This document shows positions 5,315-47,044 of a DNA stretch of 64,000 bases, in pieces. A program made the translations under genes and the position numbers. The stretch lies in assembly GCA_002155105.1 (NCBI GenBank), contig MUZD01000003.1, forward strand, positions 186,001-250,000, read 5' to 3'. The notes beneath the pieces are model-generated. The model saw only the letters and a program-made list of their open reading frames with translations. It ran no database searches and was not told where the DNA came from. Every line of letters starts with the position of its first letter. Position 1 is the stretch's first letter. The DNA is from Sedimentibacter sp. SX930. Its GTDB lineage: Bacteria > Bacillota > Bacilli > Lactobacillales > Aerococcaceae.

Positions 5315-5553
5315 GCGTTCCAAGCCCGCTCTGCCTCGAAAGAAATTTAGGAAATCTGGCCTCGCAACGTTCCCTACGGTCACCTTATACTGGGACTCTA
5401 AGGGATGAATCCCTAAGAGTCCCATGCAAATGAGCATCGCAGAGCGCAATTGCTGAGAGACTTCCTGCGTCAGCAGGTTAGTCTAACAGTATCCTTGGCT
5501 CTTAGAGACAAGGGGTTCCTTTATCCCTTTTCCGAGAGGCAGGCTTGGAACGC
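5315..5553. repeat. Mosaic long-hairpin repeat element upstream of coiA
   Basis: A 239-bp intergenic element bounded by perfect 12-bp inverted ends GCGTTCCAAGCC (5315-5326) and GGCTTGGAACGC (5542-5553). Inside it carries the block AAAGAAATTTAGGAAATC and a hairpin at 5392-5423, both also present in the elements at 8351 and 46861. It lies between mecA and coiA and covers the 5' extension of the coiA frame. Confidence 0.8.
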
Positions 5554-5646
5554 TAGACATCGGTTGGGGATGCAGAATATTTTTGAAAATCTATAAAACA
5601 CCTATGGTGATGCCATATTCACTTAAAATAACCATCTCCTTTAAAA

Positions 5647-5677
5647 TAAAAAAATCCGACCCTTTTCGGGGTCGGAT
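5647..5677 (-). terminator. Terminator of mecA
   Basis: On the minus strand ATCCGACCC pairs with GGGTCGGAT and runs into seven T residues, 5 bases after the mecA stop codon. Confidence 0.9.
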
Positions 5678-5681
5678 CAGA

Positions 5682-6341
5682 TTATTTAAAGTAGTGTCTG
5701 GCTGATTCCAATGCGTTGTCCTGGATGACCAACTTACCGTATTCGCCCAATATTTCAACAGCGATATCAGATTCCTCCGCAAATTCCAAAGCCTTCAGAA
5801 TTTCGTTATCGATATTCGTTTCCGTCATCTCATCTATGAAATAGACAACCGTCAAATAATATTGATTATCATAATAGTAAAGCGAAGATACGCCGCTCTC
5901 CAAAAACATCCGTTTCGCCAGCTCCAAGAAATCATCAAAACTCTGGAATTTAAATACGACTTCCACCGGTGCCATATCATCTTCTTCGGATTCAACATCC
6001 GTTTTATCCCGTGCGTTGAAACTCTTTGTCTGTTTTTTGATGTAATCCACTACATGCTCCAATTGATTGGAGCCATTCGCCATGTCGAAGTCGTCTTCAT
6101 TATTCATCCCTTTACTGATGAATAACTCTAAGCCATTCCCATTAGGCAGCACTTGGAAAGTAATTGCATCTGATTCATGAAATTGATTATCAACATCGAC
6201 TTCCTCGAGGATGCTGTAGAAAAAGCTCTCGATTTGCTTTTGATTTCCTAATAAATCCAGAAAGGTGATGCCTCTTTCCTCTAAATCAGAATTCTCAATC
6301 AAAACGCGAATTGTGTTTTCGTTGATGTTTTCCATTTCCAT
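5682..6341 (-). CDS. mecA: Adaptor protein MecA
   Basis: A 219-residue adaptor that delivers substrates to the ClpC-ClpP protease and helps assemble the ClpC hexamer; in Bacillus it targets ComK and ComS. The N-terminal substrate-binding domain begins MEMENINENTIRVLIEN, matching the MEIERINE start of Bacillus MecA, followed by an acidic linker (residues about 105-120) and a C-terminal ClpC-binding domain (VVFKFQSFDDFLELAKRM onward, with SLYYYDNQYYLTVVY). The start at 6341 was chosen by family alignment; an ATG at 6344 is also possible. The gene lies between spx and coiA, as in Bacillus where spx, mecA and coiA are adjacent. Confidence 0.92.
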   Translation of the reverse strand: MEMENINENTIRVLIENSDLEERGITFLDLLGNQKQIESFFYSILEEVDVDNQFHESDAITFQVLPNGNGLELFISKGMNNEDDFDMANGSNQLEHVVDYIKKQTKSFNARDKTDVESEEDDMAPVEVVFKFQSFDDFLELAKRMFLESGVSSLYYYDNQYYLTVVYFIDEMTETNIDNEILKALEFAEESDIAVEILGEYGKLVIQDNALESARHYFK

Positions 6342-6495
6342 CATGCTTCACCCCACTTTTCTTTCCCTATTTTTCTTATACCCATTGTAAATCAAATCGC
6401 AAAAATGTAAAGACAAAAGCACAAAATCTTTTAACTTCTCATTTGTTTTCTCATCTGAGCGTTTCTTTCCTGTCAAAATGCCAACGTTTTGCGGT

Positions 6496-6536
6496 CAAAA
6501 AAGACAAGTACAGCCGTTGATCCGGTGCACTTGTCT
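6496..6536 (-). terminator. Terminator of spx
   Basis: On the minus strand AGACAAGT and ACTTGTCT form the stem, followed by TTTTTTGA, 26 bases after the spx stop. Confidence 0.8.
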
Positions 6537-6562
6537 GTTGATTCCTGTTTAGTTGCTGTTGA

Positions 6563-6961
6563 CTAGAAGTTTGCCAATCTTTGCGCTTTTTGTAGTTCCA
6601 ACGCGCGGACTTCCCTCGGCAAGAAACGACGGATTTCGTCTTCGTTGTATCCCACTTGCAAACGCTTCTCGTCCAGAATGATCGGACGACGCAACAGGCC
6701 GGGATTATCCTCGATCAAAGTGAATAATGTATTTAAAGGTAAATCGTCTAAGTCGATGTTCAGTTCTTGGAACGCTTTGGATCGAGTGGAAATAATTTCT
6801 TCAGTGCCTTCTTCAGTCATTTTCAGGATGCTTTTGATTTCAATTTCTGTCAAAGGTTCGGAGAATATATTCCTTTCAGTATAAGGGATGTTATTTTCTT
6901 CTAGCCATGCACGTGCCTTGCGACATGAGGTACAACTTGGGGAAGTATATAATGTTACCAT
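6563..6961 (-). CDS. spx: Redox-sensing transcription regulator Spx
   Basis: A 132-residue ArsC-like protein. It begins [20 protein letters not shown] with the CXXC disulfide switch (CTSC) at residues 10-13, and has the [21 protein letters not shown] segment that contains the conserved RPI of Spx. Spx binds the alpha C-terminal domain of RNA polymerase and switches on thiol-stress genes when oxidised; ClpXP with SpxH degrades it. The start at 6961 has AAAGGAGAG 8 bases upstream, so the 14 extra codons of the longer frame are rejected. Length and motifs fit the family fully. Adaptor genes mecA and spxH are close by. Confidence 0.95.
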
Positions 6962-8343
<1,382 letters not shown>

Positions 8344-8350
8344 CAGAAAT

Positions 8351-8466
8351 GCTGAACGGGTTGTTCAGCCCTGAAAGAAATTTAGGAAATCATACCGTAT
8401 GAGCATCGTAGAGCGCAATAGGTATGATTTATCTAATTTCCGAAGGGCTAACCCGTGAAGCTGGCC
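8351..8466. repeat. Long-hairpin repeat element after trpS (clearest copy)
   Basis: This 116-bp element folds as one hairpin: GCTGAACGGGTT with AACCCGTGAAGC, AGCCCT (8367-8372) with AGGGCT (8444-8449), and AAATCATACC (8387-8396) with GGTATGATTT (8421-8430). The loop includes GAGCATCGTAGAGCGCAAT, also found at 5.4 and 47.0 kb. A fragment of the left arm recurs at 8474-8492. Confidence 0.85.
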
Positions 8467-8506
8467 AAGAAATGCTGAACGGGTTCGCTCTGCAATAATG
8501 ATGTAA

Positions 8507-8540
8507 AAGAGAAGCTCCGCAAATTGCGGGGCTTCTCTTT
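8507..8540. terminator. Terminator of lplJ, possibly bidirectional
   Basis: AAAGAGAAGC..CCGC pairs with GCGG..GCTTCTCTTT around a short loop, 5 bases from the lplJ stop codon; T-rich sequence follows on both strands. Confidence 0.85.
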
Positions 8541-8545
8541 CTTTA

Positions 8546-9553
8546 TCAGTACAATTCTTCAAGCAACTCTTCTGCTGTCACATTACCGAAGTATTTTTTG
8601 ATGTCAAGTTCATTCAATTTGGCAAGCATATCCTCTTTGGCATATTTTACTCCGATAAAAGCATCTTCAACATCCTTGATTTCCCCCAAGCCAAAGAAAT
8701 CTCCGAAAACCTTCAGCTGTTGGATATGCCCATCTTCAACGTTCATGCGGATTTCAATGGACCCGATCGGAAAACGATGATGTTTTTGGATTTCGAATTT
8801 GGGTGATTTGCCGTAATTCCAATCCCAGTTGCCGAAGTACTCTTCGCGGATTTCATAAACGCGTTTCCAATCTTCCTCGGTCAAATGGTACTCTTTTACT
8901 TCCTCACGCGTTTTTACATCAAAAATCGACAACAGCATCAAGTCTCGGAATTCTTCCGTAGTCAGGTCTTGATAAGCCTCATCAACAAAAGGTTTGATGT
9001 TGGTCACGCGGCTGCGGATCGATTTGATGCCTTTCGATTCGATTTTTTCTTTGCGTGGCTTCAATGCGCCGGTTACGGCATCCAGATCGGAGTCGAAAAG
9101 GATTGTCCCATGGGCGGTCATTCTTCCGTTTGTCGCATACATGGCATTCCCCGAGAATTTTTTCTCTCCGATGACCAGATCATTTCTGCCTTTTAATTCA
9201 GCTTCCTTGACGCCTACGCTGTGCAAAAAAGAAATGACCGGTTTTGTGAATTTTCCGAAATCACGGAATGAATCACCGTCATCCTTCGTGATGAAGCAGA
9301 AAGAGAAGTTCCCCAAATCGTGGTACACTGCACCGCCCCCGGACATACGGCGGACGATGTGTATCTTATTCGCTTCGACATAATTCGCATTGATTTCTTC
9401 GATCGTATTCTGGTTGCGGCCAATGATGATCGACGGCTCATTGATATAGAACAACAGTATCGGCTCATCTAAGATTTTTTCCTTCAATAAAAATGTCTCT
9501 AAGGCAATATTTACGCTGGGATCCAACTGTCCCTGATTATCCACAAAATACAT
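8546..9553 (-). CDS. lplJ: Lipoate-protein ligase
   Basis: A 335-residue lipoate ligase that activates free lipoate with ATP and attaches it to lysine of lipoyl domains in 2-oxoacid dehydrogenase or glycine cleavage complexes. The lipoate/biotin ligase core shows SIIIGRNQNT and the glycine-rich VRRMSGGGAVYHDLGN, followed by GEKKFSGNAM with the catalytic lysine region. The C-terminal accessory domain contains YFGNWDWNYGKSP, a hallmark of long LplA/LplJ enzymes. The start at 9553 (MYFVDNQGQ) is preceded by GGGAGAGG. An MBL-fold hydrolase gene lies 66 bp upstream, the same pairing as Bacillus yhfI-lplJ, so they are probably cotranscribed. Confidence 0.95.
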   Translation of the reverse strand: MYFVDNQGQLDPSVNIALETFLLKEKILDEPILLFYINEPSIIIGRNQNTIEEINANYVEANKIHIVRRMSGGGAVYHDLGNFSFCFITKDDGDSFRDFGKFTKPVISFLHSVGVKEAELKGRNDLVIGEKKFSGNAMYATNGRMTAHGTILFDSDLDAVTGALKPRKEKIESKGIKSIRSRVTNIKPFVDEAYQDLTTEEFRDLMLLSIFDVKTREEVKEYHLTEEDWKRVYEIREEYFGNWDWNYGKSPKFEIQKHHRFPIGSIEIRMNVEDGHIQQLKVFGDFFGLGEIKDVEDAFIGVKYAKEDMLAKLNELDIKKYFGNVTAEELLEELY

Positions 9554-9619
9554 ATGTTTATACCTCTCCCATTCTTGATTCGATTTGTTGTTTCGCTTCG
9601 TTCTGGTTGATGAACACAA

Positions 9620-10360
9620 TCAAATTGTGACGATCCGGTCCTTTTCTGCAAGCGTGACGGATACGGACGGTGCTGCTTCTTTCGCTTGACCCAGCAGCAC
9701 AGATAGCTCGCCTTTTTGCGGCAAATGCGTCAGTATCAGCTGTTTGACTGCCGCTTCTTCGGCTATCGCCCCAACTTCGCCTGCAGTCATATGCGCATGG
9801 TGTCGCTCGTTGCCGTTGAACAGGTTCGCATCAGCCATGAACAGGTCAGCATCCTTCACAAAAGGCACGAATGCTGGTAAATAGGCTGAATCCGCCCCGA
9901 AGACGAAGACCTTTCCGGTGGCGATCTCCTCGATCCGCAACGCATAGCACGGAACCGGATGTATGGTTTTCAAAAAACGGATCCGGAATGGCCCCAATTC
10001 CAACGTCTCATCCGGAGCATAGGCAATCCCTTCGCTCACTCCCGTCATCTCCAACAAGCGGAAAAATTCCGATTCAGTATGCCCGTATATCGGCAGTACT
10101 TTTTTTGCCTTGCCTTCTGCAGGCTCTTTCAGCTGAAAAGTATATTGCAGGACACCCAAGTCCGCAATATGATCTGCGTGATAATGCGTCAGGATGAGCG
10201 CATCCAAATCCAAAGGGTCCAAATGATGCTCCAGCGACAACAAAGCGTTGCTGCCGACGTCGATCAATAGTCTGAAATCATCGGATGTCAGCAGATAAGC
10301 TGTCGTACCGACATCTTTTGTGGGATAACCGCCCATGCAGCCCAAAATTGTCAATTCCAT
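9620..10360 (-). CDS. MBL-fold metallohydrolase (YhfI-like)
   Basis: A 246-residue cytoplasmic metallo-beta-lactamase-fold protein. The metal motif is LTHYHADHIADLG near residue 60, with further ligands in FVFGADSAY and the late HLPQ. It resembles the RNase Z-like branch of small MBL hydrolases, but lacks features that would fix a substrate. The start at 10360 (MELTILGCMGGYP) follows GGAGGACATTTA. It precedes lplJ on the same strand, a pairing also seen in Bacillus, which hints at a role near lipoate or cofactor metabolism; this is inference. No signal peptide is visible. Confidence 0.85.
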   Translation of the reverse strand: MELTILGCMGGYPTKDVGTTAYLLTSDDFRLLIDVGSNALLSLEHHLDPLDLDALILTHYHADHIADLGVLQYTFQLKEPAEGKAKKVLPIYGHTESEFFRLLEMTGVSEGIAYAPDETLELGPFRIRFLKTIHPVPCYALRIEEIATGKVFVFGADSAYLPAFVPFVKDADLFMADANLFNGNERHHAHMTAGEVGAIAEEAAVKQLILTHLPQKGELSVLLGQAKEAAPSVSVTLAEKDRIVTI

Positions 10361-10407
10361 TAAATGTCCTCCAATCCAATATCTGATAAGCAAAGAATCC
10401 TATCCAG

Positions 10408-10435
10408 ATTATATCATGCCTCAAGCCATCCTCAA
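10408..10435 (-). promoter_or_regulatory. Candidate promoter of the MBL hydrolase-lplJ unit
   Basis: Minus-strand TTGAGG and TATAAT with a 16-bp spacer, about 50 bp before the MBL gene start. Confidence 0.5.
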
Positions 10436-10546
10436 CGGCAAACTCTTTCATAGCAACGAAAAGAAACAGTTTTTTTAAAAAACGATAACAGTTTTATATC
10501 GGTGGATTCATTATAGCACCAAACAAAAACAAACACTATATGAAAT

Positions 10547-10599
10547 TAAAAACAGTCCGCCATTATCTGTAAACACACAGATAGGCGGACTGTTTTATT
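10547..10599. terminator. Strong bidirectional terminator after hemY
   Basis: AACAGTCCGCC..TTATCTGT pairs with ACAGATA..GGCGGACTGTT, with A and T runs outside. It overlaps the last bases of hemY and separates it from the MBL gene. Confidence 0.9.
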
Positions 10600-12028
10600 A
10601 TGTATTCGGACTGTCATTATTTTCCATTTTTTTCATGTAACGGATCGCCTCATCAGCCAAGCGCTTCCCCTCAATGATGGCATTTTCCATTCCATAACCA
10701 GTGATCCCGTTCCCCCCGACAAAAATGCCTCTTTTTGCATACTCTTGACGGGCTGGATAGCCTGCCTCCAGCATCTCTTGTCTTTGTTGCAGACTAAAAT
10801 GAGGTACGGCCTTTTCCCAACGATAAAATGTGGACTGCAAAGGTTCCTCACTCAAGGTCAAAATTTCCTTTACTTCATTTTTGATGATATCCATCACAAG
10901 ATCATCGGCTAATTCTATCAAGGTTTCTTCCAGCCGTCTGCCGAATTCCACAAGCACGTAATAATAGTCCGCTTGTTCAAACAGCGGCCATTTGTTGTTC
11001 AAAACGACAAGCTTGGTGCTATGGAAAGAGCTTCTCCGTGGAATCACAAACCCTTGCCCTTCAGGCAGGTTTTTGACTGATTTTTTATTTATTTTGAAAA
11101 AAACTGTGCCTACGCTCGTGCTTTGGGCTTTTGGGAAATCAATTTCATTAGAGAATCCATCCAAAAACCCAAGAGATTCCTGTGGGTTTGTTGTGACGAT
11201 GACACTTCCCGCACGCATGGATTCGCGTCCGTTCAGTTCAACCAACAGCAGATCATCTGACACAGTGCTCAACGACTTCACTTTCTGATTCATGTATAGA
11301 TGGCCTTCCAGGTGTTGGGCCAGACGTTTGGTTAAACTTGCCAAACCTTCCTTGAAGTTATACTCCTGGCCGGATCCATCGGCGTAACGCATCAGTTGCT
11401 CTTTTTTGTCCTTGCCTATGTGCGCCTTCCCGTAGATAGTCACCAAATTTTCATCGAATAATTTTACTGGCATCAGTTCCATGGAGCCATAGACGTTATC
11501 CGGGAAATAGGGTTCAGCCATATAATCGACCACTTCCCGCCCCAAACGGAATTCCAAAAAGTTGTCGGTGGAATATTCCGGGTTTTCATGCAGATTCTTG
11601 GAGAGGAAAATACTGTTCATGAACGCTCGCAGCTTTGCATCCAAGGTCAATCCATTTGCCTGCCAAATATCATTAAGGAAAAGCGGCATGCCGTGGTAGG
11701 TTGGCATAACGTCATCAATTACCGCATTTCCATCGAACAACACCAGTTTGCCCCCATTGCTGAATTGCTTTTCCTTTTCCAAGCCTAATTCCTGCAGAAA
11801 ACCGGAAATATCCGCCCTTCTCGAATCGAAAGCTGATGCTCCCACATCAATCGCATAACCATCCATATCAATCGTGTGGATCATGCCACCGATAGCGGCT
11901 CGCTCTTCCAGTATGACATATTCAAATGGGAGGTTTTGTTCCCGGATGGCTTTATCGATTTCATAAGCGGCTGTCAATCCTCTCAGCCCGCCGCCGATGA
12001 TTGCGATACGTTTTTTCATCTTCTCCAT
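10598..12028 (-). CDS. hemY: Protoporphyrinogen/coproporphyrinogen oxidase-like flavoprotein
   Basis: A 476-residue FAD enzyme of the HemY/CgoX family, which oxidises coproporphyrinogen III or protoporphyrinogen IX during haem synthesis. The Rossmann motif IIGGGLRGLTAAYE lies at residues 10-23, followed by the second FAD contact VILEERAAIGGMIHTID, and the C-terminal FAD motif GIFVGGNGITGYGMENAI near residue 440. The start at 12028 has GGAGGGG upstream; an ATG three codons later is less well placed. No other haem gene is in the window, so the enzyme may work in an incomplete pathway or on another substrate. Its position next to the yhfI-lplJ pair recalls the Bacillus hem/yhf area. Confidence 0.85.
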   Translation of the reverse strand: MEKMKKRIAIIGGGLRGLTAAYEIDKAIREQNLPFEYVILEERAAIGGMIHTIDMDGYAIDVGASAFDSRRADISGFLQELGLEKEKQFSNGGKLVLFDGNAVIDDVMPTYHGMPLFLNDIWQANGLTLDAKLRAFMNSIFLSKNLHENPEYSTDNFLEFRLGREVVDYMAEPYFPDNVYGSMELMPVKLFDENLVTIYGKAHIGKDKKEQLMRYADGSGQEYNFKEGLASLTKRLAQHLEGHLYMNQKVKSLSTVSDDLLLVELNGRESMRAGSVIVTTNPQESLGFLDGFSNEIDFPKAQSTSVGTVFFKINKKSVKNLPEGQGFVIPRRSSFHSTKLVVLNNKWPLFEQADYYYVLVEFGRRLEETLIELADDLVMDIIKNEVKEILTLSEEPLQSTFYRWEKAVPHFSLQQRQEMLEAGYPARQEYAKRGIFVGGNGITGYGMENAIIEGKRLADEAIRYMKKMENNDSPNT

Positions 12029-12146
12029 CCTGCCATCCCCTCCTCTCGCTATCTTGATTCCTACTTTATCATTATCTATATCTTACTCTATCCATCAACG
12101 AAAATATGTGGATACTTTTCGACAGATATTCATGCTGCTCTTGTTT

Positions 12147-13232
12147 TTATACGTTTTCGCGGATTTGTTTGACCGTATCGGCATCCAAACGTTTGACTAA
12201 TTCCGTGACCAATTTGACTGCATTCAGATAGTCATCTTCATGGATCATGGACGTGTGCGAATGCAGGTAACGCACGGGCACCGTGATCGCGAAGGAAGGA
12301 ATGCCATCCAAACTCTGATGTTGGGCGCCTGCATCCGTTCCGCCACCCGTAATGACTGTGTACTGGAATGGAATTTCGCATTCTTCGGCAACGCCGACAA
12401 TGAAGTCGCGCAAGCCACGATGCGGAATCATCGATGCATCATAAATCAATAACTGCGGCCCTTTCCCTAATTCGGAATCCGCTTCTTGAGGCGTCATTCC
12501 CGGGGTATCCCCTGCCGTCCCTGTATCCAAGGCAAATGCGATGTCCGGACGGATCATGTGGGTGGCCGTCTTCGCTCCGCGCAGGCCGACTTCCTCCTGG
12601 ACATTTCCGCCGCTGAAAATCACATTCGGGTGTCCAGATTTGGCGACATTTTCCAACACTTTGAGCGCAACAGCCAATCCGATGCGGTTATCCCAAGCCT
12701 TCGCCAACAGGAATTTGGAATCGTTCATGCGTTTGAAGGAAATGTACGGCGTAATCATATCGCCGGGCTTGATGCCCCATTCCGCTACTTGTTCTTTTGA
12801 AGAAGCGCCGATATCGATGAACATATCTTTGATTTCATATGGCTTTTTGCGTGCTTCCGGCGTAAGGACATGCGGCGGTTTGCAGCCGATGACTCCGTGG
12901 CAGCGCTCGCCTTTCGAGTTGGTGATTTCCACTTGCTGGGCAAGCATGACCTGATTCCACCAACCTCCCAAAGTTTGGAATTTGATGAAACCCTTCTCGG
13001 TTATGCTCGTTACCATGAATCCCACTTCATCCAAGTGCCCCGCCAACAAAATGGTCGGCCCCTCTTCCGCTCCTGTATGTTTGGCAAAGAGACCGCCCAA
13101 TCCGTCCTGCGAAAAGCTTTCGGCGAAAGGTTCGGCATAACGTCTGAAGACTTCGCGGACCTCGCCTTCATTGCCCGGAACGCCTCTCGCATCCGTCAAA
13201 TCGATCAGCATTTGTAATTCTTTCTCTTCCAA
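12147..13232 (-). CDS. M42 family metallopeptidase (glutamyl aminopeptidase type)
   Basis: A 361-residue dinuclear zinc or cobalt aminopeptidase of the M42/PepA group, which forms large soluble tetrahedral shells that trim N-terminal residues from peptides. Visible motifs are [13 protein letters not shown] (first metal histidine and aspartate), [10 protein letters not shown] (bridging aspartate), [10 protein letters not shown] (catalytic and metal glutamates), FALDTG and [13 protein letters not shown] (last histidine). The start is TTG at 13232, supported by GGGGG eight bases upstream; an ATG at 13211 is a weaker alternative. A second M42 gene lies at 32390 and shares about the same layout. 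It stands alone between rplT and hemY. Confidence 0.92.
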
Positions 13233-13292
13233 AATGATACCCCCATTGATTTAGTGACATAAAATAAGTATAGCATTTACTGCAAGAAAAAC

Positions 13293-13338
13293 AAAAAATC
13301 GCCGCACTCCCAGTCAAAGACCGGGGAGGCAGCGATTC
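13293..13338 (-). terminator. Terminator of the infC-rpmI-rplT operon
   Basis: On the minus strand an interrupted stem (AATCGC..GC..TCCC with GGGA..GC..GCGATT) runs into TTTTTT, 6 bases after the rplT stop. Confidence 0.85.
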
Positions 13339-13343
13339 AAAAA

Positions 13344-13703
13344 TTATTTAGCCAAAGCAGCTTTAGCTTGTTCAGCTACTGCAGTGAAAGCTGCAGCGTC
13401 TGTAACAGCCAAGTCAGCCAACATTTTACGGTTCATTTCGATACCAGCAAGTTTCAATCCGTGGATCAAAGTGCTGTAGCTCATGCCGTTGATGCGAGCA
13501 GCCGCGTTGATACGAGTGACCCATAATCTACGGAAGTCACGTTTCTTTTGACGACGGTCTCTGTAAGCATAAGTATAAGATTTCATTACTTGTTCTTTAG
13601 CTGTTTTGAATAATGTATGTTTTGAACCGTAATAACCTTTAGATAATTTAATAATCTTTTTGCGGCGTTTACGGGTTACTGTCCCACCTTTTACACGTGG
13701 CAT
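13344..13703 (-). CDS. rplT: 50S ribosomal protein L20
   Basis: A basic 119-residue protein, the standard L20 length, that binds 23S rRNA early in large-subunit assembly. It begins [20 protein letters not shown] and contains the [24 protein letters not shown] segment typical of L20. In Bacillus and relatives L20 also binds the operon leader and represses infC-rpmI-rplT; the leader upstream of infC here fits that model. It is the last gene of the operon, 53 bases after rpmI. Confidence 0.98.
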
Positions 13704-20711: not shown

Positions 20712-20727
20712 GTTTAAAATAAGAAAA

Positions 20728-20842
20728 GCTGAACGGGTTCGCTTAGCCCTGATTAAGGAAACACTGTGACCTAAACGGTCAAGTGTATCATGCCTCTAAG
20801 CGATTGAAATCGCAAGAGTCATGACAATTTAGGAAATCGTGC
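20728..20842. repeat. Mosaic hairpin repeat after dnaI (partial, with inserted module)
   Basis: Begins with the common left arm GCTGAACGGGTTCGCTTAGC and ends with TTTAGGAAATCG, as in the element at 8351, but between them holds a roughly 73-bp module (20754-20826) with two nested hairpins. The same module occurs at 28915-28987. The right arm of the parent element is missing; the repeat abuts the dnaI stop codon. Confidence 0.8.
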
Positions 20843-28714: not shown

Positions 28715-28744
28715 AAAAAAGCCCAGGAAGCGATCCCTGGACTA
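28715..28744 (-). terminator. Terminator of the murC transcript
   Basis: On the minus strand AG.CCAGG and CCTGG.CT pair around eight bases and are followed by TTTTTT. It lies beyond the two hairpin elements at 28747-29024, so these would be inside the murC 3' untranslated region. Confidence 0.75.
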
Positions 28745-28746
28745 AT

Positions 28747-28871
28747 AGTGTGTGATGAATCCTGAGCTCAGAGTTTGAGCACTAACGCTGTTCAGGACCA
28801 AGCAGCCCGGTTTTGGCTGAGTGGGCCTGAACAGCGTTAGGCGGAGAACTCTAGGATTCAGAACCGTTCTA
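28747..28871. repeat. Structured repeat unit A downstream of murC
   Basis: Borders are AGTGTGTGATGA at the left and TCAGAACCGTTCTA at the right. Inside, GAATCCT pairs with AGGATTC, AGAGTT with AACTCT, and the core is a perfect 15-bp inverted repeat CTAACGCTGTTCAGG (28782-28796) and its complement (28826-28840). Confidence 0.85.
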
Positions 28872-28875
28872 AAAC

Positions 28876-29024
28876 AGTGTGTAATGATTCGCGTTTAGAT
28901 ACCCGGACGTTGGGTAAGGAAGCACTGTGACCGTACCGGTCAAGTGTATCATGTCTCTAAGCGATTAAAAATCGCAAGAGCCATGACAAAACGGGAGCGG
29001 TATCTGCGAATCAGAACCGTTCTA
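28876..29024. repeat. Structured repeat unit B downstream of murC
   Basis: Has nearly the same borders as unit A (AGTGTGTAATGA and TCAGAACCGTTCTA) but different inside: GATTCGC with GCGAATC, AGATACC with GGTATCT, then the inner two-hairpin module 28915-28987 that is also present at 20754-20826. It ends 5 bases from the murC stop codon. Confidence 0.85.
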
Positions 29025-29028
29025 TGTA

Positions 29029-34071: not shown

Positions 34072-34088
34072 AGAAAAGAAATGCGATA

Positions 34089-34113
34089 CAAGCCCGCTCT
34101 GCCTCGAAAGAAA
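34089..34113. repeat. 25-bp fragment of the mosaic repeat family
   Basis: These 25 bases are identical to 5321-5345 of the element upstream of coiA, spanning CAAGCCCGCTCTGCC and the following CTCGAAAGAAA. The rest of the element is absent; a terminator follows. Confidence 0.75.
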
Positions 34114-34118
34114 CACAG

Positions 34119-38979: not shown

Positions 38980-39015
38980 CTGTGTTTCTGTCATAAGGAG
39001 TCCAGTCAAGAACCC

Positions 39016-39444
39016 CTATTTATTCTGATTATCGGATAGTTTGAAAAGCGTCTGTATCGGCATCGCCGCGAAAGATTCCCTGAGCACCTGTTCCACTGTC
39101 GCAGCCGCTGCAGCAAGTTTCGCCGCACCAGTTTTCGTCAAGGTCGTATAGATGATCCGCCGATCCTGCTCGCAGACATTCCGCTCCAACGCTCCGCAGC
39201 CCTTCGCCTCAAACTTGCTGACCAATCTCGATACAGCACTTTGGCTTAAGCCGACCTTTTCCTCCAGATCCTGGAGTTTCAGCTTTTTCTCCGCTTCCTG
39301 TGACAGGAAATAAAGGACATAGAACTCTTTCAGAGAAAGGTTATGGTTCGTCTGCAAACTTTTTTCCAGCGTGCTCTCGACTTTCAGATGAAAATTGTTG
39401 ATTTCCAGCCATTGGCAAAACGCAGAACTCATTTCACAATTCAC
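39016..39444 (-). CDS. MarR family transcriptional regulator
   Basis: A 142-residue winged-helix DNA-binding protein. The recognition region is LQDLEEKVGLSQSAVSRLVSKFEAKG cut across residues about 58-82, followed by the wing ERNVCEQDRRIIYTTLTKTG. It has cysteines at 3, 10, 83 and 90 or so, which might allow redox sensing. The start is GTG at 39444 with GGGGG 7 bases upstream. It is divergent from an aldo/keto reductase gene, which is its most likely target. In Bacillus the MarR regulator ScoC occupies the same neighbourhood, but this protein is shorter and not clearly ScoC. Confidence 0.85.
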   Translation of the reverse strand: MNCEMSSAFCQWLEINNFHLKVESTLEKSLQTNHNLSLKEFYVLYFLSQEAEKKLKLQDLEEKVGLSQSAVSRLVSKFEAKGCGALERNVCEQDRRIIYTTLTKTGAAKLAAAAATVEQVLRESFAAMPIQTLFKLSDNQNK

Positions 39445-39605
39445 AAAGTTTCCCCCATTCCTTTCTTTTTATCAGCTTATGATACCAAATATTGGCATTA
39501 TGAGCAATCTGCCACGACTGGACGCAGATGATTTGCTTGCTGAATTCGGCTATGTTAACCTGAAACCATGCACACGCATATATATTTCAGATGGGAGTGT
39601 TCGAT

Positions 39606-40463
39606 TTGGAAAAAGAAATCAAGAATATCACCTTCAGCAACGGCGTAACCATCCCGCAACTGGGCTTGGGCGTCTTCAAGATGAAAGACGAAAAGGAACT
39701 GAGTGAAGCGATCCGCGTTGCTTTGGAGGCTGGCTACCGCCATTTCGACACCGCGATGATTTACGAGAACGAAGCTATTGTGGGACAAGCTTTGAAAGAA
39801 AGCAGCATCCCAAGGGAAGAAATCTTCTTGACCTCAAAAGTTTGGAATTATGACCACGGCTACGAGGAAACCAAAGCGGCTTTCCAGGCCAGTCTGGACC
39901 GTTTGGGCACGGATTATCTTGATCTTTATCTGATCCACTGGGCTTCCGCAAACTACATCGAGACTTGGAAAGCGATGGAAGAATTGTACAAGGCAGGCAA
40001 AATCAAAGCCATCGGTGTCTCCAATTTTCAGATTCATCATCTCGAGGATCTGATGTCGCACACGGAAATCATCCCAATGATCAATCAGATTGAAACGCAC
40101 CCTGCCTTTCCACAGGATGAACTGCGGGCTTTCATGGCGCAGCACGCAATCATCCATGAAGCTTGGGGTCCGCTTGGGCAAGGCAAAAATGACCTATTGA
40201 CGCAAGCTGTGCTCCTTGAGCTTGCGGAGCAGTATGGCAAGACACCTGCCCAAATCGTTTTACGCTGGCATATCGAACGCGGCATCGTCGTCATACCGAA
40301 ATCGGTCACGCCGAGCCGTATCCGAGAAAACCGCGACATCTTCGATTTCAGCCTATCAAAAGAGGATATGGACAAGGTCGCGACCCTCAATACCGGCGAA
40401 AGGTACTCCGGGAATCCCGACGATCAGGAATTCCTGACCAGAACCTCAATCCGCCCGAATTGA
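39606..40463 (+). CDS. Aldo/keto reductase
   Basis: A 285-residue NADPH-dependent TIM-barrel reductase of the 2,5-diketo-gluconate/glyoxal reductase type. The catalytic tetrad is visible: aspartate and tyrosine in GYRHFDTAMIYENE, lysine in FLTSKVWNYDHG, and histidine in LIHWASANY; the cofactor region is IPKSVTPSRIRENRDIFDF. The start is probably TTG at 39606, since GGGAG lies 8 bases before it, while the ATG at 39591 has no ribosome binding site. The divergent MarR gene probably controls it. Confidence 0.92.
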   Translation: MEKEIKNITFSNGVTIPQLGLGVFKMKDEKELSEAIRVALEAGYRHFDTAMIYENEAIVGQALKESSIPREEIFLTSKVWNYDHGYEETKAAFQASLDRLGTDYLDLYLIHWASANYIETWKAMEELYKAGKIKAIGVSNFQIHHLEDLMSHTEIIPMINQIETHPAFPQDELRAFMAQHAIIHEAWGPLGQGKNDLLTQAVLLELAEQYGKTPAQIVLRWHIERGIVVIPKSVTPSRIRENRDIFDFSLSKEDMDKVATLNTGERYSGNPDDQEFLTRTSIRPN

Positions 40464-40475
40464 GGAAAATAATCC

Positions 40476-40523
40476 AGAAGAGGAGCACTTTGCCACCTTA
40501 AGCGGCAGAGGCCCCTCTTTTTG
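40476..40523 (+). terminator. Terminator after the aldo/keto reductase gene
   Basis: A stem with AAGAGG..TTTGCC and GGCA..CCCTCTT runs into TTTTTG. Confidence 0.7.
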
Positions 40524-40694
40524 TTGTATGTTGCGTTTTTTGCCTGCTCCCGAATCAGGCTGCAGATATGAATTTTCTAAGAAGTTTGCTAGCGTTTTTA
40601 AGGAATATTTTCCATAATCACGGCGTTTATGATATATTTATAGATGGTTATTCATGAGATAGATAAATAGAAATAGATAGGAAGTGCCACATTC

Positions 40695-41693
40695 ATGAAA
40701 AAGAAATTAGCATTGACGTCCGTTGCTTTCTTGACGGCCATCACATTAGCAGGCTGCGCGACTAGCGAAACTGTCGCAACGACTCCAGCAGGCGATATCA
40801 CAAAAGATGAATTATATGACGCAATGAAAGCCTCAATCGGCGAAACAGTCTTGCAACGTCTGATCTTGATCGACGTATTGAACGACGCAATCGGCAAAAA
40901 TGAATTAGAAGCTGAAACAGAAGCTGAACTGTTGACTACCATCGAACAATACGGCGGAGAAGAAACTTTCAACTACATCTTGTCACAATCAGGCTTTGCA
41001 AATAAAGATGAATACCAAGATGTATTGTATCTGAACAAACTGATCGAAGCAGCCGTAAGAGCTGAAACGACTTTCACGGATGAAGAAGTGGAAGCCTATT
41101 ACGAAGCTTACCAACCACAAATCAACGTACAGCATATCTTGGTTGCGGATGAGGCAACTGCTGTAGATTTGATCAACCAAATCAATGAAGGTGCAGATTT
41201 CGCGGAATTGGCTGCAGCTAACTCCACCGACACAGCCACTGCTGAAAACGGCGGAGAAACAGGATTGTTCGGAGCAGGCGAGATGGTCGCAGCATTCGAA
41301 GAAGCCGCTTATGCGCTTGAAGTCGGTGAAGTGACACAAACACCAGTCGCTACCGAATACGGCTACCACATCATCAAGATGATCGAGAAGACTGAAAAAG
41401 GAACATTGGAAGAAGAGCGCGAAAACATCGAAACAGTGATGATGGACGAAAAACTTGCCGACAATGATTACCTGACAGCCGTCATGTCCACAATCGTCCA
41501 AGCAGCGAATGTTGAAATCAAGGACGAAGACTTGGCAGCAGCGATCGATCAATTCTTGCCTGCTGAAGAAACAACCTCATCAGACGCAACATCCGAAGCA
41601 ACAACTTCAGAAGAAGCTAGTTCAGAAGCTAGTTCAGAAGCAACTTCTGCAACTGAAGAAGCGGAATCAGCTACATCCGAATCTGCAAACTAA
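40695..41693 (+). CDS. prsA: Foldase lipoprotein PrsA
   Basis: A 332-residue extracytoplasmic peptidyl-prolyl isomerase that helps secreted proteins fold. The lipoprotein signal ends TLAGC with cysteine 21 as the lipidated residue. A SurA-like N-terminal part is followed by the parvulin domain (INVQHILVADEATAV through YGYHIIKMIEKTEKG, about residues 138-240). The last 45 residues are a low-complexity tail of serine, threonine, alanine and glutamate with the direct repeat EASSEASSEA. It is monocistronic and convergent with yhaM, as in the Bacillus prsA-yhaM region. Confidence 0.95.
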   Translation: MKKKLALTSVAFLTAITLAGCATSETVATTPAGDITKDELYDAMKASIGETVLQRLILIDVLNDAIGKNELEAETEAELLTTIEQYGGEETFNYILSQSGFANKDEYQDVLYLNKLIEAAVRAETTFTDEEVEAYYEAYQPQINVQHILVADEATAVDLINQINEGADFAELAAANSTDTATAENGGETGLFGAGEMVAAFEEAAYALEVGEVTQTPVATEYGYHIIKMIEKTEKGTLEEERENIETVMMDEKLADNDYLTAVMSTIVQAANVEIKDEDLAAAIDQFLPAEETTSSDATSEATTSEEASSEASSEATSATEEAESATSESAN

Positions 41694-41705
41694 TAGCTTT
41701 AACGT

Positions 41706-41756
41706 AAAACACGCAAATTACCAGCCTTTTGATGCTGGTAACTTGCGTGTTTTTTG
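41706..41756. terminator. Terminator between prsA and yhaM
   Basis: AACACGCAA.TTACCAGC pairs with GCTGGTAA.TTGCGTGTT, followed by TTTTT on the plus strand; it directly abuts the yhaM stop codon. Confidence 0.9.
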
Positions 41757-42725
41757 TTATTGCCCTTCTTCAGCAGGTTGGGTAAAGAGCGGCTTGTAGA
41801 AACTGCGGTTCTCCAACCCGAAAATACGCTCGCTGAACGTTCCCGGTGTCGTGCGCAACAAAGCCGTGTCGATCATATTGATGGAAGCATCCAAATTATC
41901 AAGGTGATGGATGATTTCGGCTTCCAGGAGATGCGGCGTTACCGGTGATCCGAATTCTTGCTTGCCGTGATGCGCCAGAACAATGTGTTTCAACAGGATG
42001 ACTTCTTCGCTGTCCTCATCGATGCTCAGGGACAGACAGGCTTTGGTGATTTCTTCATCAATCAGGACGATGTGTCCGATCAGATTCCCTTTCAGGGTGT
42101 ACTCGGTCGACATGCTGCCGCTCAACTCGATTGTTTTTCCGATGTCGTGGAGAATCACTCCCCCGTACAGCAAAGACTTATTGACTGAAGGGTAATGTTG
42201 AATGACCGTTTTTGCCATCCGCAAGATCGATACCGTATGGAAACCGAGTCCGCCAACGATAGCGTGATGGTGACGTTTCGCAGCGGGATACTCGAAAAAT
42301 TCCCGTTGATATTTTTTGAGTATATGGCGGACAATCCGATTGATTGGTGCGCTCGTGATCTCAAAAAGGATTTGGCTGACTTCCTCCACCATTTCTTCAG
42401 ATTTCAACGGAGCACGCTCCATATAGAGTTCCGGTCGGCTTGGTTCCCCTTCGCGGGCTAGCCTTAGTTTTGTGATGCGCAGTTGAGGATTATTCTGATA
42501 CATTTCCCGTTTGCCGGTTACGGCAACGACTTGGCCAGCCTGGAATTGCTGGATATCCTCCTCTTTTGCGTCCCAATACTTCCCGTCAATCTGACCGCTG
42601 CGGTCCTGAAAAGTAAAAGCGATGAATTTCTTGCCGTTTTTTGCCAGACGGATATCCGCACTTTTGATCAGCACATAAATTTCAAAATTATCATCTATTT
42701 CGTGTTCATATATTTTTTTGGCCAC
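41757..42725 (-). CDS. yhaM: 3'-5' exoribonuclease YhaM
   Basis: A 322-residue enzyme that trims RNA and DNA from the 3' end with manganese. An N-terminal OB fold (KKFIAFTFQDRSGQIDGKYWDAKEED) is followed by an HD domain with HHHAIVGGLGFHTVS, GGVILHDIGKTIELSG near residue 192 and HIVLAHHGKQEFGSP. The start is GTG at 42725 with AAAGGGG upstream. It lies after yhaN and yhaO on the same strand, the conserved yhaO-yhaN-yhaM cluster. Confidence 0.95.
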   Translation of the reverse strand: MAKKIYEHEIDDNFEIYVLIKSADIRLAKNGKKFIAFTFQDRSGQIDGKYWDAKEEDIQQFQAGQVVAVTGKREMYQNNPQLRITKLRLAREGEPSRPELYMERAPLKSEEMVEEVSQILFEITSAPINRIVRHILKKYQREFFEYPAAKRHHHAIVGGLGFHTVSILRMAKTVIQHYPSVNKSLLYGGVILHDIGKTIELSGSMSTEYTLKGNLIGHIVLIDEEITKACLSLSIDEDSEEVILLKHIVLAHHGKQEFGSPVTPHLLEAEIIHHLDNLDASINMIDTALLRTTPGTFSERIFGLENRSFYKPLFTQPAEEGQ

Positions 42726-42746
42726 CCCTACCAGCCCCTTTCACTC

Positions 42747-45569
42747 CTATTTTAACATGTATACTTGTTTCTGTGAAAATCGTTGAACGCAAGCGTCATC
42801 GAACGTGAAAAAGAGCACCTGCACGTCTTCGCTCAGCTCTTCCAGCAACGTAAACATGATATTTTTCCTGTCCTCATCGAAGTTCACAAAACCATCATCG
42901 ATCAAGACCGGCATGCTGACGATATCGGCAGTGTTCTTCACAAATGCAAGCCGCAGAGCAATGTACAACTGTTCCACCGTTCCCTGCGACAATTCATTCG
43001 GTAAGAAGGTCGTTCCGTCCTTACGCTGCACCTTCATGCCGTTCTTTTGGAACGCAATCCCGGTATATGCGCCTTCCGTCAACCGACTGAAGAAGGTTAT
43101 CGTATCATCGAGTATCAGCGGCAGGCGATCCTCTTTCCCGTACCGCAATGCCCCTTCGATCCATTCTCCGGCTGTAACCAAGCCGGCCCACTCGATGGCA
43201 AGGTCCCTCAGCTCGGTTTCGGCCAAAGCGAACTCCTGCAGCAAGGCACTGTAAGTACCGCCTTCTTCCAATTGTTCCAGCTGATGCTTCAGTTCAACCT
43301 CAGTCCGCTGCAGTATCGACAGCTCGGACTTCAACCGCCGCATTTCCAGTTCATTCTTTTCGTAAAGATCCGCGCTTTTCTTGGCATCGCCATAACGATC
43401 CAAGAGTTGCTCGCGACCATTGACCTGCTCATCCAGCAATTCTTTGCGCTTGAGGTTTTGCTCCTGCTTTTCCTTCAGAGCCAACAACTGGTAAAATTCA
43501 GCTTCCGTCTTTGCGTTTGCCTGATCCAATAGCCGCTGTCTCTGTTGATGGGACTCGGCAAGGTCGCGTTGGATCTGCTCCAACTCTTGCTGCAGTTCAT
43601 AGATTTTATCCTGAACATTCGTAGCCATATTTTCTTCCAAAATGACGGCATTCTGTATCTCGGAGAAGCGTGCGGCCATTTCAGCGACTGTCAGATGTTC
43701 AAAATGGAAACGGCTGCGGATGAACGCAGTCTGCTCGTTCCATTTATCCACGGCGAAATTAAGATCGCTCATTTCGGCTTCCTGATTGATGATCAGTGCG
43801 GCCTTCTCCGCCAACACGGCACCGGGGTCCAATTGCAGGAGTTCCCTTGCCGTCATTCGGGCCGGATAGCCTTTCTGCTGCAGGAAAGTCGTCCATTCGG
43901 TTTGGAGCATGTTTCCGCGCTCTTCCATTTCTTCCCGGCTGTTCAAAAGTTCCAAAAACTTATCCTGCAACTCTTCGAGCTCTCTTGTTACAGCCGAGAT
44001 TCTTTCCCTGACAGCGGCCTGCTTCAGAAATTGCTCCATCGCATTTTCGGAGGAGCCTTCTTGGGAGGCAACGTCCTTCGTTTGTGTCTGTTGCTTCCTT
44101 CTGGTCAGGATAGCCCCACCGACAGCAAGCACAGCAGACAACGCCCATGCAATTACCCGGAAGTCTGCCAGAACAAAAGACAGAACCAAAAATACAGCCG
44201 CAGCCAAAAACAGCATGCCGAGCGGATTTCTTTTCGCCGGGGCGGGTGCAGCAATTCTTTGATTCGGCTGTTGCACATCGCTTTGCAGCGCAGCATACGC
44301 TTCATCAGTAAGCTTCTCGTGTTGGAGGCGAGTCTCTTCTTGCTGGAGGGTTTCCAGCTGTTCCTCATGAAAACCGATATTGTGGTCCAAGCGAAGCAGC
44401 TGTTCTTCGATCTGTCGGATGTCCTGCGCAAGCTGCTGCAACTGCCCGCGTTCTTCTTCCTTGAGCGGCTCCGGAGCGGGCAGGGCCAGATTCAAACCCA
44501 AGGCCATTTTTTGTTTGGCCAAATCAGCCTTGTTGTTGCTGATCTCATTTTCCAGATAAGTGATCTTATTCAGATCCGCTTGCGTTTTGGCTGCACTGTG
44601 CTGCAAAGCCGCAAACTCCGATTGATGCCCTTTGTACCATTCCACATGGACATATTCGCCCAACTGTTTCTGCAGCTGCGCTAACCTTTCCTGGAGTTGC
44701 GTTTGCGCTTGGATCGACGCGGCCATTTTTTCTTGCTGGTTCTGCCACTGGTAACGGGCATCTTCAGGCACTTCACTGTAGTCGACAGCCGTAATTTCCT
44801 TGTTCAGCCGTTTCCACTCCTGATAGCTGTCCGCCAAACGCAAGCTTTCTGCAATTGCGGTTTGTTCCTGCTCCAGTTCCTGTTGACGGGACAAAAGCTC
44901 CGCCTGCTGTTTTTGGCTGTCCGATAAATGCAACAGCGAAGTTTCATAGGTCGCATTTTTTGCTTTTGCTTGCTGAAGCTTCCTTTGCAGTTTTTCAGCA
45001 GCCTGTATCTTCTTGTTCAATGGCGGAACGCTGCCTGTCGGTTTGAAGCGTTTCGCGGCTTCATCCCGGTATTCTTTGGCTAATTGCAGCAAACGTTCGC
45101 TCCCGCTGGTGCCGATGCTCAACAGATAATGGTTGAGGTCGTCTTTTTGGGTTTTTTTCAAGGAAAGCAGACTGTCTATTTTGAATGTGTATAACGACTC
45201 AAAAGTCTCCCTGTCCATCCCCATCAGGAAACGCCCGAGATTTTTTGTCGTCTGCTGCACACCATCCGGCAGCGTGACGAGGGCCTGCCCTTTATTGCGG
45301 TCCTTCACCCGCTCAACGATGACATCCCCGAACCGCGTGTCCTCCAAAAATAAGCGACCGCCGTATGCTTGCGCTTGTTTCGGGACGTACAGATTCTGAT
45401 CTTTCTTGCGGGCACTGGGAAACCCGAAGAGGATGCTGTTGATGAAGGATGACAAGGTGCTTTTGCCGGCTTCATTTTTTCCGTGGAAGACCTGCAGATC
45501 CTGCACACCATCAAATGTCCGGTTCACCCATTTCCCGTAGCCGTATATTTCAATCTTCCGTATCTTCAC
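42747..45569 (-). CDS. yhaN: SbcC-like ATPase YhaN
   Basis: A 940-residue AAA/SMC-like ATPase. Walker A is QVFHGKNEAGKSTLSSF near residue 36; long coiled coils rich in Q, E and L fill most of the middle; two hydrophobic segments near residues 450-490 (LGMLFLAAAVFLVLSFVLA and AWALSAVLAVGGAIL) interrupt the coil, which is a feature of YhaN; the signature and Walker B follow at the end (LPNELSQGTVEQLYIALRL, MPVLIDDGFVNFDEDR). It probably works with the phosphoesterase YhaO in DNA repair. The start is GTG at 45569, six bases after AGGAGG, overlapping yhaO by 20 bases. Confidence 0.92.
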   Translation of the reverse strand: MKIRKIEIYGYGKWVNRTFDGVQDLQVFHGKNEAGKSTLSSFINSILFGFPSARKKDQNLYVPKQAQAYGGRLFLEDTRFGDVIVERVKDRNKGQALVTLPDGVQQTTKNLGRFLMGMDRETFESLYTFKIDSLLSLKKTQKDDLNHYLLSIGTSGSERLLQLAKEYRDEAAKRFKPTGSVPPLNKKIQAAEKLQRKLQQAKAKNATYETSLLHLSDSQKQQAELLSRQQELEQEQTAIAESLRLADSYQEWKRLNKEITAVDYSEVPEDARYQWQNQQEKMAASIQAQTQLQERLAQLQKQLGEYVHVEWYKGHQSEFAALQHSAAKTQADLNKITYLENEISNNKADLAKQKMALGLNLALPAPEPLKEEERGQLQQLAQDIRQIEEQLLRLDHNIGFHEEQLETLQQEETRLQHEKLTDEAYAALQSDVQQPNQRIAAPAPAKRNPLGMLFLAAAVFLVLSFVLADFRVIAWALSAVLAVGGAILTRRKQQTQTKDVASQEGSSENAMEQFLKQAAVRERISAVTRELEELQDKFLELLNSREEMEERGNMLQTEWTTFLQQKGYPARMTARELLQLDPGAVLAEKAALIINQEAEMSDLNFAVDKWNEQTAFIRSRFHFEHLTVAEMAARFSEIQNAVILEENMATNVQDKIYELQQELEQIQRDLAESHQQRQRLLDQANAKTEAEFYQLLALKEKQEQNLKRKELLDEQVNGREQLLDRYGDAKKSADLYEKNELEMRRLKSELSILQRTEVELKHQLEQLEEGGTYSALLQEFALAETELRDLAIEWAGLVTAGEWIEGALRYGKEDRLPLILDDTITFFSRLTEGAYTGIAFQKNGMKVQRKDGTTFLPNELSQGTVEQLYIALRLAFVKNTADIVSMPVLIDDGFVNFDEDRKNIMFTLLEELSEDVQVLFFTFDDACVQRFSQKQVYMLK

Positions 45570-46809
45570 TGTCTTCCTCCTCAAACGCGACCGCCTGCAC
45601 CAGTCTGGTCTTTGCTGCAGCCAGCACTTCCTCTTTGAAGCTTCGGTCTTTTTTTAAATCAGGGAAAGTAGTCCTCATGAGCGGATGTTGGAAAAAGTTG
45701 TCCAGCCGTTGATAGAATACGTCATCTGCGCTGATTTCCGTCCAACTTTTCGAAAAACTTTCCTTCATGACCTGATCAAAGGAAAATAGTTCCTTTTCCG
45801 TATCGACCGCAATTTTCAACTGATACAGATAGATGAAAGGCCGCTCCAACCGTTGTCTGACACCCTCCAATATCTCCTCATCCTCGATCTTTTTGACGAC
45901 ATCGGGATGCAGCTCCTGGATATCCGTGAACAGCAGCGACAACAGCACACTTGATTCACTCTGGGAGCGATAGTAGTCCATGCGTTCCTCGATGCGCGCG
46001 AATGCATCATTCAGGGTTTTGCATCCAAGCAACGACACTGTCTCTTTCTCCCAGACGATCGGCGCCGTTGGGATGAACGACAATGCAGGAGCCATCCCTT
46101 TCCGGAGCGTCACCAGGTAAGCGCCTTTCGCTTCGGTTTCATTCGGATTGCGCCCTTGCGTATTGCCGCAATAGACGACAGGCGGAGCCGTCTGCAGCTG
46201 CTGCCTTTTGTGGATATGCCCCAAAGCCCAATAATCATAATTTTTCGCGTTCAACTCGCCCAACGAAAACGGCGCATAGACGCCTTCTGAAGAGTTCAAG
46301 CCTTCGAGGTAGCCATGCAGCATTCCGATATGGTAATCCACGCTATGATTCCGGTTCGGGTATTCAACGATCATCCGTTCCTCGACCCATCTGGAAGGAT
46401 AACTGAAGCCGGTAATGGCCACCCGTTCCCCTGCTTTAGTGGTCAGGATTTCTGTCGTGACCGCTTTTTCGAAGACTGTGACATTTCCTGGAAGCTGCAG
46501 TTTGAGCGATTCCCTTCCGAGAAAATCATGGTTCCCATGAGACAAATAAACCGGGATGCCTGAACGATCCAGTCGGCCCAATTCATCCCTCAGGAAGGCC
46601 TGCGCTTTTACGCTCTGATTCTCCTCATCGTAGATATCCCCGCTGATCAGAAAAAAATCCACTTGGGCCGCGATGGCTTGCGTCACCAATTCCCGAAAGG
46701 AATCAAAAGTGGACTGGTAAATGGCATCAAAAAGTTGCGGTTCCAGCTGTTTTATCCCCTTAAAAGGGCTATCCAGATGGAGATCCGCTGTATGGATAAA
46801 TGTAATCAC
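45550..46809 (-). CDS. yhaO: SbcD-like metallophosphoesterase YhaO
   Basis: A 419-residue nuclease subunit. Phosphoesterase motifs are FIHTADLHLDSPF, LISGDIYDEEN, YLSHGNHDFLG, HIGMLHGYL and ALGHIHKRQ, giving the two-metal centre. The C-terminal part binds the ATPase partner. The start is GTG at 46809 (then ITFIHTADLHLD), 7 bases after GAAGGA; the ATG at 46830 lacks a ribosome binding site. It forms a translationally coupled pair with yhaN. Confidence 0.93.
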   Translation of the reverse strand: MITFIHTADLHLDSPFKGIKQLEPQLFDAIYQSTFDSFRELVTQAIAAQVDFFLISGDIYDEENQSVKAQAFLRDELGRLDRSGIPVYLSHGNHDFLGRESLKLQLPGNVTVFEKAVTTEILTTKAGERVAITGFSYPSRWVEERMIVEYPNRNHSVDYHIGMLHGYLEGLNSSEGVYAPFSLGELNAKNYDYWALGHIHKRQQLQTAPPVVYCGNTQGRNPNETEAKGAYLVTLRKGMAPALSFIPTAPIVWEKETVSLLGCKTLNDAFARIEERMDYYRSQSESSVLLSLLFTDIQELHPDVVKKIEDEEILEGVRQRLERPFIYLYQLKIAVDTEKELFSFDQVMKESFSKSWTEISADDVFYQRLDNFFQHPLMRTTFPDLKKDRSFKEEVLAAAKTRLVQAVAFEEEDSEDTED

Positions 46810-46860
46810 AAGCTGTCCTTCTTTCCGCATGCTATGCTTAATTTGGCAAATAAAAGAAAA

Positions 46861-47044
46861 GCTGAACGGGTTCGTTCAGCCCTGAAAGAAATTTAGGAAA
46901 TCGAGCCATGCAACGTTCCCTACGGTCACCTTGTACTGGGAGTCTAAGGGATGAATCCCAAAGACTCCCATGCAACTGAGCATCGTAGAGCGCAATAGGC
47001 ACGATTTATCTAATTTCCGAAGGGCTTACCCGTGAAGCTAGCCA
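46861..47044. repeat. Mosaic long-hairpin repeat upstream of yhaO
   Basis: The outer arms are GCTGAACGGGTTCG..CAGCCCTGAAAG and CGAAGGGCT.ACCCGTGAAGC, as in the element at 8351. Inside is an extra block shared with the element at 5315, including the hairpin 46938-46969 (GGGAGTCT..GGGAT with ATCCC..AGACTCCC) and GAGCATCGTAGAGCGCAAT. Confidence 0.85.

Follow-up and report, generated by a model that had tools for sequence, protein, structure and literature searches.

Bacterial genomes commonly contain small palindromic repeats, and we know of no solution to the problem of how the modular ones among them move and change. The EFAR repeats of Enterococcus are reportedly palindromic, intergenic and produced by a variable assembly of sequence modules, and they are said to integrate into stem-loop targets in such a way that parts of the target stem are retained.

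EFAR of Enterococcus (De Gregorio et al. 2009, FEMS Microbiol Lett 292:7-12) is cited in PMC3733652, and the Enterococcus faecalis family Efa-1 is given as 163 bp long, present in 65 copies and predicted to form a pair of adjacent stem-loops, or double hairpin (PMC2267715). BOX of Streptococcus pneumoniae is described as a strongly folded, interspersed and modular repeat (boxA, boxB and boxC, with more modules in S. suis) with terminal inverted repeats and target duplications, and SPRITE repeats are placed near gene 3′ ends (PMC3049150). REP sequences measure 20-40 bp, carry GTAG or CGTC tags and are often linked to an IS200/IS605-type transposase (PMC3733652, PMC2817692).

The window analyzed here is a stretch of 64,000 nucleotides (C22:186001-250000) within a 3.13-Mb, 37-contig genome whose genus we take to be Trichococcus (hereafter the own genome, G000). 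A first-pass annotation had described a set of long hairpins in this window and proposed that they are either non-autonomous repeats that swap inner modules or a structured RNA family. These elements constitute one family of long-hairpin repeats, present far above chance. We consider it probable, at roughly 0.8, that the copies represent a nested, modular foldback repeat that is mobile and non-autonomous.

Anatomy of the elements in the window

All four elements and three fragments that the first-pass annotation listed were found at the positions it gave (Table 1). Its grouping of the fragments as a single kind did not hold: one is the remnant of an element, one is a piece of a left arm, and one is a mini-hairpin.

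Table 1. Elements, their parts and related features, in window coordinates
Feature	Position	Strand	Remarks
Element A	5311..5554	+	Type II outer arms; both inner modules, left (L) and right (R)
Inner module L (left) of element A	5362..5431 (limits approximate)	+	Present or absent at other sites
Conserved core of element A, GAGCATCGCAGAGCGCAAT	5432..5450	+	
Inner module R (right) of element A	5451..5529 (limits approximate)	+	
3′ tail of element A	5555..5648	+	Element-free relatives realign from ~5649
Element B, short form	8347..8469	+	Starts 3 bases past the stop codon of ORF 7351-8343
Core of element B	8401..8419	+	
Mini-hairpin GCTGAACGGGTTCGCTCTGC	8471..8494	+	Version of the hairpin in alleles without element B (G003, G006)
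Element D	20725..20842	+	Left arm with inner module X; lacks core and right half
Second nested-hairpin locus	28744..29013	+	Outer arms unrelated; right unit with module X
Remnant, type II left arm	34087..34116	+	What is left of an element that is complete at this site in other genomes
Element C	46858..47045	+	Type I arms, L module
Core of element C	46978..46996	+	
3′ tail of element C	47046..47137	+	
Type I left-arm piece	53981..54005	+	No complete copy there in 8 relatives read

The short form is a single long imperfect hairpin of about 122 nt (122-125 nt), in which the flank GAAAAGC is followed by an outer stem, a 5-nt bulge (CGYTC), a middle stem and an internal loop and, further in, by a conserved AAATTTAGGAAA/TTTATCTAATTTC stretch with bulges and a G-U wobble. 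Next comes an inner stem, and the core lies in the apical loop. The outer arms fall into two main types, the stems of which differ by paired changes. To this framework three modules can be added, with X occurring before ATTTAGG, L (~66 nt) 5′ of the core and R (~60 nt) 3′ of it. The 154 distinct Trichococcus copies represent 11 of the 16 arm/X/L/R combinations that could exist, and 3 further copies have unclassified arms.

The hairpin is followed by a tail of ~90 nt, whose motif is present in 73 of the 154 distinct copies. Because empty alleles realign only beyond it, elements A and C extend into this conserved tail (to ~5648 and ~47137, respectively). Upstream of approximately position -47, conservation across 138 copies is close to background, and it declines slowly along the tail. 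Single-strand folding departs strongly from random, with z values of -7.4 for 5310-5560 (as RNA), -6.3 for 46858-47045 (as RNA) and -6.0 for 8349-8468 (as DNA). The mini-hairpins were called terminator-like on the - strand in a promoter and terminator scan.

The site of element A reads as empty in 6 of 10 relatives and that of element C in 6 of 9, the latter being filled in G100 and G010 and too diverged to judge in G009. At the place of the remnant at 34087-34116, G003 contains a complete element, G011 the fullest form and G004 a partial deletion. Site D in G100 has a further hairpin nested within module X, and this same hairpin recurs in G011 at the position corresponding to 34087.

Other differences among relatives were observed along the window. 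The repeat at 28744-29013 is absent in G001, G003 and G010, and its composition varies among G000, G100, G002, G004, G005, G006 and G011. G009 has a 2.2-kb insertion (L280-L283) at the place of 28743-29025, which starts with an apparent TnpB-like reading frame, as judged by eye. Approximately 1 kb of the window (39515-40560) has no counterpart at that position in G002, G005, G010 and G011, representing a gene-sized insertion or deletion.

Copy number, distribution and maintained pairing

The core GAGCATCGNAGAGCGCAAT matches the own genome 33 times (16 forward and 17 reverse), each time with at most one mismatch in a search that allowed three, and the reversed pattern used as a control gives 0 matches at up to three mismatches. 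The arm GCTGAACGGGTT alone is less specific, with 52 matches at one mismatch or fewer compared to 22 for its control, and 3 of its exact matches are not followed by an element. Queries of 239 nt and 188 nt returned 60 and 70 aligned pieces, respectively, at E <= 10, with several pieces per copy. A covariance model derived from 24 short copies yields 37, 43 and 44 matches (E <= 0.1) in G000, G100 and G001, respectively. The first-pass annotation had identified two outcomes that would speak against it, namely that the genome holds no further copies, or that the shared blocks reflect chance or one recent segmental duplication. Neither was observed: searching the full genome and its relatives with the covariance model revealed dozens of copies per genome, and the 33 dispersed cores, set against a control of 0, together with their differing flanks, rule out the second.

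Beyond the own genome, a plain DNA search was positive in 14 of 100 genomes, which comprise 12 of the window's genus (own genome included) as well as G022 and G082. With the covariance model at E <= 0.001 and up to 11 matches counted per genome, the family was detected in 82 of 295 Lactobacillales genomes and in 19 of 75 genera. The number of matches per genome reaches 130 (G022), with 89 in G181, 75 in G135 and 44 in G046, and exactly one match is present in 28 of the 82 positive genomes. A scan of contigs returned at least 101 stretches, all from Trichococcus among the matches listed, and is uninformative on other genera. Head-to-tail tandem arrays with a near-constant unit length occur in several genera, including that of G069, whose gyrase comes closest to PDB chain 4gee from E. 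faecalis without being identical to it.

Near-identical copies are found in genomes of three families (G046, G228 and G123), and a 166-nt copy with 98% identity resides on 11 Enterococcus faecium plasmid records, out of 13 matching records. Since the plasmid copy is so similar and near-identical copies extend across three families, horizontal movement is implied. Parts of 80 nt are present on one E. faecalis plasmid and one E. casseliflavus plasmid, and the G069 array matches 62 nt of one Enterococcus raffinosus plasmid. The Trichococcus type gave no match in plasmids, in phages or, using an exact pattern, in viral contigs; the G022/G046 type, which is the one present on Enterococcus plasmids, gave none in phages. 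Likewise, no plasmid match was obtained for L299 or L324, and no phage match for L324.

In two genomes of genus g24 in family f4, which we take to be Streptococcus, a copy in antisense orientation borders directly on the dnaJ start (loci L327 and L328, around 1500). In many genomes of this genus the model matches exactly once, at what may be a domesticated copy.

The stems of the family are kept by paired changes. In an alignment of 24 copies (22 from Trichococcus, one from G022 and one from G082), two-sided changes occur at 13 of 36 pairs, and 97.8% of cells pair, compared to 91.0% after shuffling and at most 51.8% in slid versions; on one measure, that of further pair types, the alignment scores no higher than its shuffles. 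An alignment of 74 distinct rows from many genera reveals two-sided changes at all 36 pairs, with 97.0% of cells pairing as opposed to 73.2% after shuffling and at most 54.9% when slid, where the alignment is fitted to the model, leans towards it, and takes in tandem copies and three reverse-strand matches of palindromic copies.

The gene context of the copies was read from ORFs of at least 80 aa. For 27 of the 33 own copies the left neighbor is a stop codon on the same strand, which lies within 15 nt in 20 of these 27. The corresponding counts for the named Trichococcus loci are 55 of 87 copies and, within 15 nt, 46 of 55, so that the position right after stop codons noted in the first pass applies to most Trichococcus copies. 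For most copies in G022 (20 of 25) and G181 (22 of 25), the right-hand neighbor is a gene on the other strand, with its 3′ end facing the copy. In G181, 8 of 21 opposite-strand starts are located 18-21 nt to the left of a copy. Past the tail end in G022, AAAAA occurs within 12 nt in 21 of 25 cases, and by eye these represent the A-tracts of terminator-like hairpins.

The arrangement of copies relative to replication was also considered. In G022, 67 of 77 listed copies (of 130) fit a two-replichore split, whereas none of 60 simulations, carried out on a coarser grid, exceeded 54 of 77. An intrinsic replication-strand bias is nevertheless weakened as an interpretation: G001, G100 and G181 do not rise above simulation (in G181, the 29 clusters were compared at n = 33), and the G022 pattern can be accounted for by gene orientation.

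Insertion sites, module turnover and alternative explanations

For 52 of 173 distinct flanked copies, at least one orthologous allele is without the core, a count that includes partial elements. Three cases are the cleanest. A site that is empty in G080 is filled in G123, where the flanks are 97-98% identical. L184 and L047 differ by an insertion of 127 nt with unchanged neighbors, and L087 and L154 by one of 165 nt, for which ATAA constitutes a possible 4-nt duplication. Target duplications longer than 4 nt are absent at the clean empty sites, many other pairs being too diverged for their exact ends to be placed, and among the Enterococcus plasmids compared there is no clean empty allele for the plasmid copies. 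The comparison of empty sites and target duplications suggested in the first pass has in this way yielded sites that are element-free in close relatives, and insertions of 127-165 nt that lack a long duplication. Empty alleles at sites B and D hold mini-hairpins or arm pieces, and in the G080/G123 and L184/L047 pairs the insertion is plain, with no hairpin lost.

If the copies are those of a mobile repeat, an enzyme acting in trans, or replication or repair on a folded single strand, would copy hairpins beside other hairpins or into their loops. Such copying would explain the terminator-adjacent copies, the head-to-tail arrays and the nesting. Neither a transposase nor an autonomous copy or transposition event was seen, a matching autonomous element having been sought at Y1 transposase loci. 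Any effect of the elements on host RNA would be secondary.

The exchange of modules can be followed between the own genome and the conspecific G100, in which an orthologous stretch is available for 22 of the 33 own copies. Five of these 22 pairs differ by whole inner modules within flanks that are 97.6-99.8% identical; because the remaining 11 of 33 copies have no ortholog among the G100 stretches compared, this rate of turnover is a partial estimate. The differences involve L at L007 and L008, X at L019, R at L028 (which is element B), and both X and L at L033. Three more pairs differ by other indels, which affect the tail at L001, 17 nt at L005 and a downstream tandem repeat at L027. The units of this last repeat contain GTTGTCCGATAACCGCAANGAATCGGACA, and its G100 version is longer than that in G000. 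Empty sites, the gain and loss of modules at unchanged sites between conspecific genomes, and dozens of copies per genome bear out the proposal of non-autonomous repeats that swap inner modules.

The strongest competing explanation, which we regard as having perhaps one chance in three, is that modules are exchanged by ectopic gene conversion between the scattered copies of an ancient repeat, in which case they would be alleles rather than mobile units. Copies within one genome do have common stretches on either side of the modules, as such conversion would require, and the G000 and G100 versions of L008 are dissimilar outside the module as well, which resembles a conversion tract and is the pattern that whole-element replacement or conversion would give. 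At L033, however, two modules differ whereas the 15 bases between them are unchanged, as are the copy-specific bases around them. Similarly, site B holds R in G100 and X plus R in G011, with site-specific bases retained on both sides. The main argument comes from module X, which is also found inside the unrelated frame at 28744-29013, between different arms, where G100 has a different inner hairpin. Because X sits in a frame unrelated to that of the elements, the modules appear to be portable units and not alleles exchanged only via homologous arms. Gene conversion may be responsible for part of the swaps.

A more specific extension of the mobile-repeat interpretation is that the inner modules are themselves mobile and hop into hairpin loops as their targets by means of a hairpin-recognizing enzyme, entering unrelated frames across the Lactobacillales. 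We regard this extension as tentative and somewhat less probable than the exchange of modules by conversion.

It is unlikely that the elements are primarily a structured RNA under selection, such as a 3′ UTR stabilizer, a terminator or a leader, that has spread by duplication. The two-sided changes at every pair of the larger alignment would be expected of such an RNA, as would the bulges and the G-U wobble, which is conserved in 61 of 73 rows, and the placement of a copy beside the dnaJ start in two genomes of one genus. Outside the fixed wobble, G.T pairs outnumber A.C pairs by 48 to 19, which weakly suggests that it is the + strand which folds. This excess derives largely from one pair, though, in an alignment that is fitted to the model. 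Furthermore, the presence of the elements is unstable among close relatives, and their orientation varies by host: Trichococcus copies follow stop codons in sense, those of G022 and G181 mostly lie downstream of a gene on the other strand, and the copies at dnaJ are antisense. Rfam 15 at the gathering score gave 0 matches in the window, and among L002, L129 and L142 it gave a single match at E <= 1 (0.55), which falls outside the element. Of the structured RNA family put forward in the first pass, the strong conservation of pairing stands; the RNA reading itself is improbable, given the lack of an Rfam match and the variation in gene orientation.

Derivation of the elements from IS200/IS605 (Y1 HUH) transposons, as non-autonomous relatives comparable to the REPs of RAYTs, is similarly improbable. 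Hairpin structure and the lack of a long target duplication would suit such an origin, as would the TAAG that flanks 23 of the 24 listed copies of G022 on the left and the presence of Y1 genes in Trichococcus. The Y1 transposase (PF01797) is encoded by 118 of the 295 genomes, but it is found in 40 of the 82 genomes that are positive for the family and in 78 of the 213 that are negative, an association that is not significant (odds ratio 1.65, P = 0.064). Half of the copy-rich genomes, defined as those with at least 7 listed matches, have no PF01797 (16 of 32), and among the genomes without a Y1 gene are G181 and G135, with their 89 and 75 matches. Moreover, five Y1 loci that were scanned contain neither the core nor the tail motif, only loose short arm motifs. 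Finally, identity with a known Rfam RNA is ruled out, as no Rfam family matches the elements.

Comparison with described repeat families

Group IIC introns insert after terminators, and the elements described here resemble them in that their sites adjoin terminator-like hairpins, the elements themselves having no Rfam match. Classical features of MITEs are not present, in that the clean empty sites show no duplication longer than 4 nt and the Y1 loci contain no matching autonomous IS. With REP and BIME sequences, the family has in common that it consists of short intergenic palindromes that are numerous and form composites; unlike REP or BIME associated with RAYT, its units are ~122 nt or longer, and no linked enzyme was found (PMC3733652, PMC2817692). 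The resemblance to BOX and SPRITE is that the repeats are modular, folded and interspersed, and that they are positioned near gene 3′ ends; in contrast to BOX so described, there is no long duplication, and the modules nest inside hairpins (PMC3049150). Efa-1 is similar to the family in size and copy number (PMC2267715).

The family offers a test bed in which two conspecific genomes differ by whole modules, and which further includes an order-wide model, relatives that are element-free or element-rich, and copies on Enterococcus plasmids. Annotation is also affected, since copies at gene ends and starts can alter terminators or leaders between strains. In the literature searched on Trichococcus, on nested or interspersed palindromic repeats and on EFAR, with subscription papers mostly outside the search, the family in Trichococcus is undescribed.

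The nearest described system known to us is EFAR of Enterococcus, and the family would work like these repeats. Both are palindromic, intergenic and complex, and the modular assembly said to characterize EFAR has its counterpart here in the 11 of 16 combinations and in the 5 of 22 pairs with turnover. Features that may set the family apart from EFAR are one core that extends across 19 genera and an inner module that is common to unrelated outer frames.
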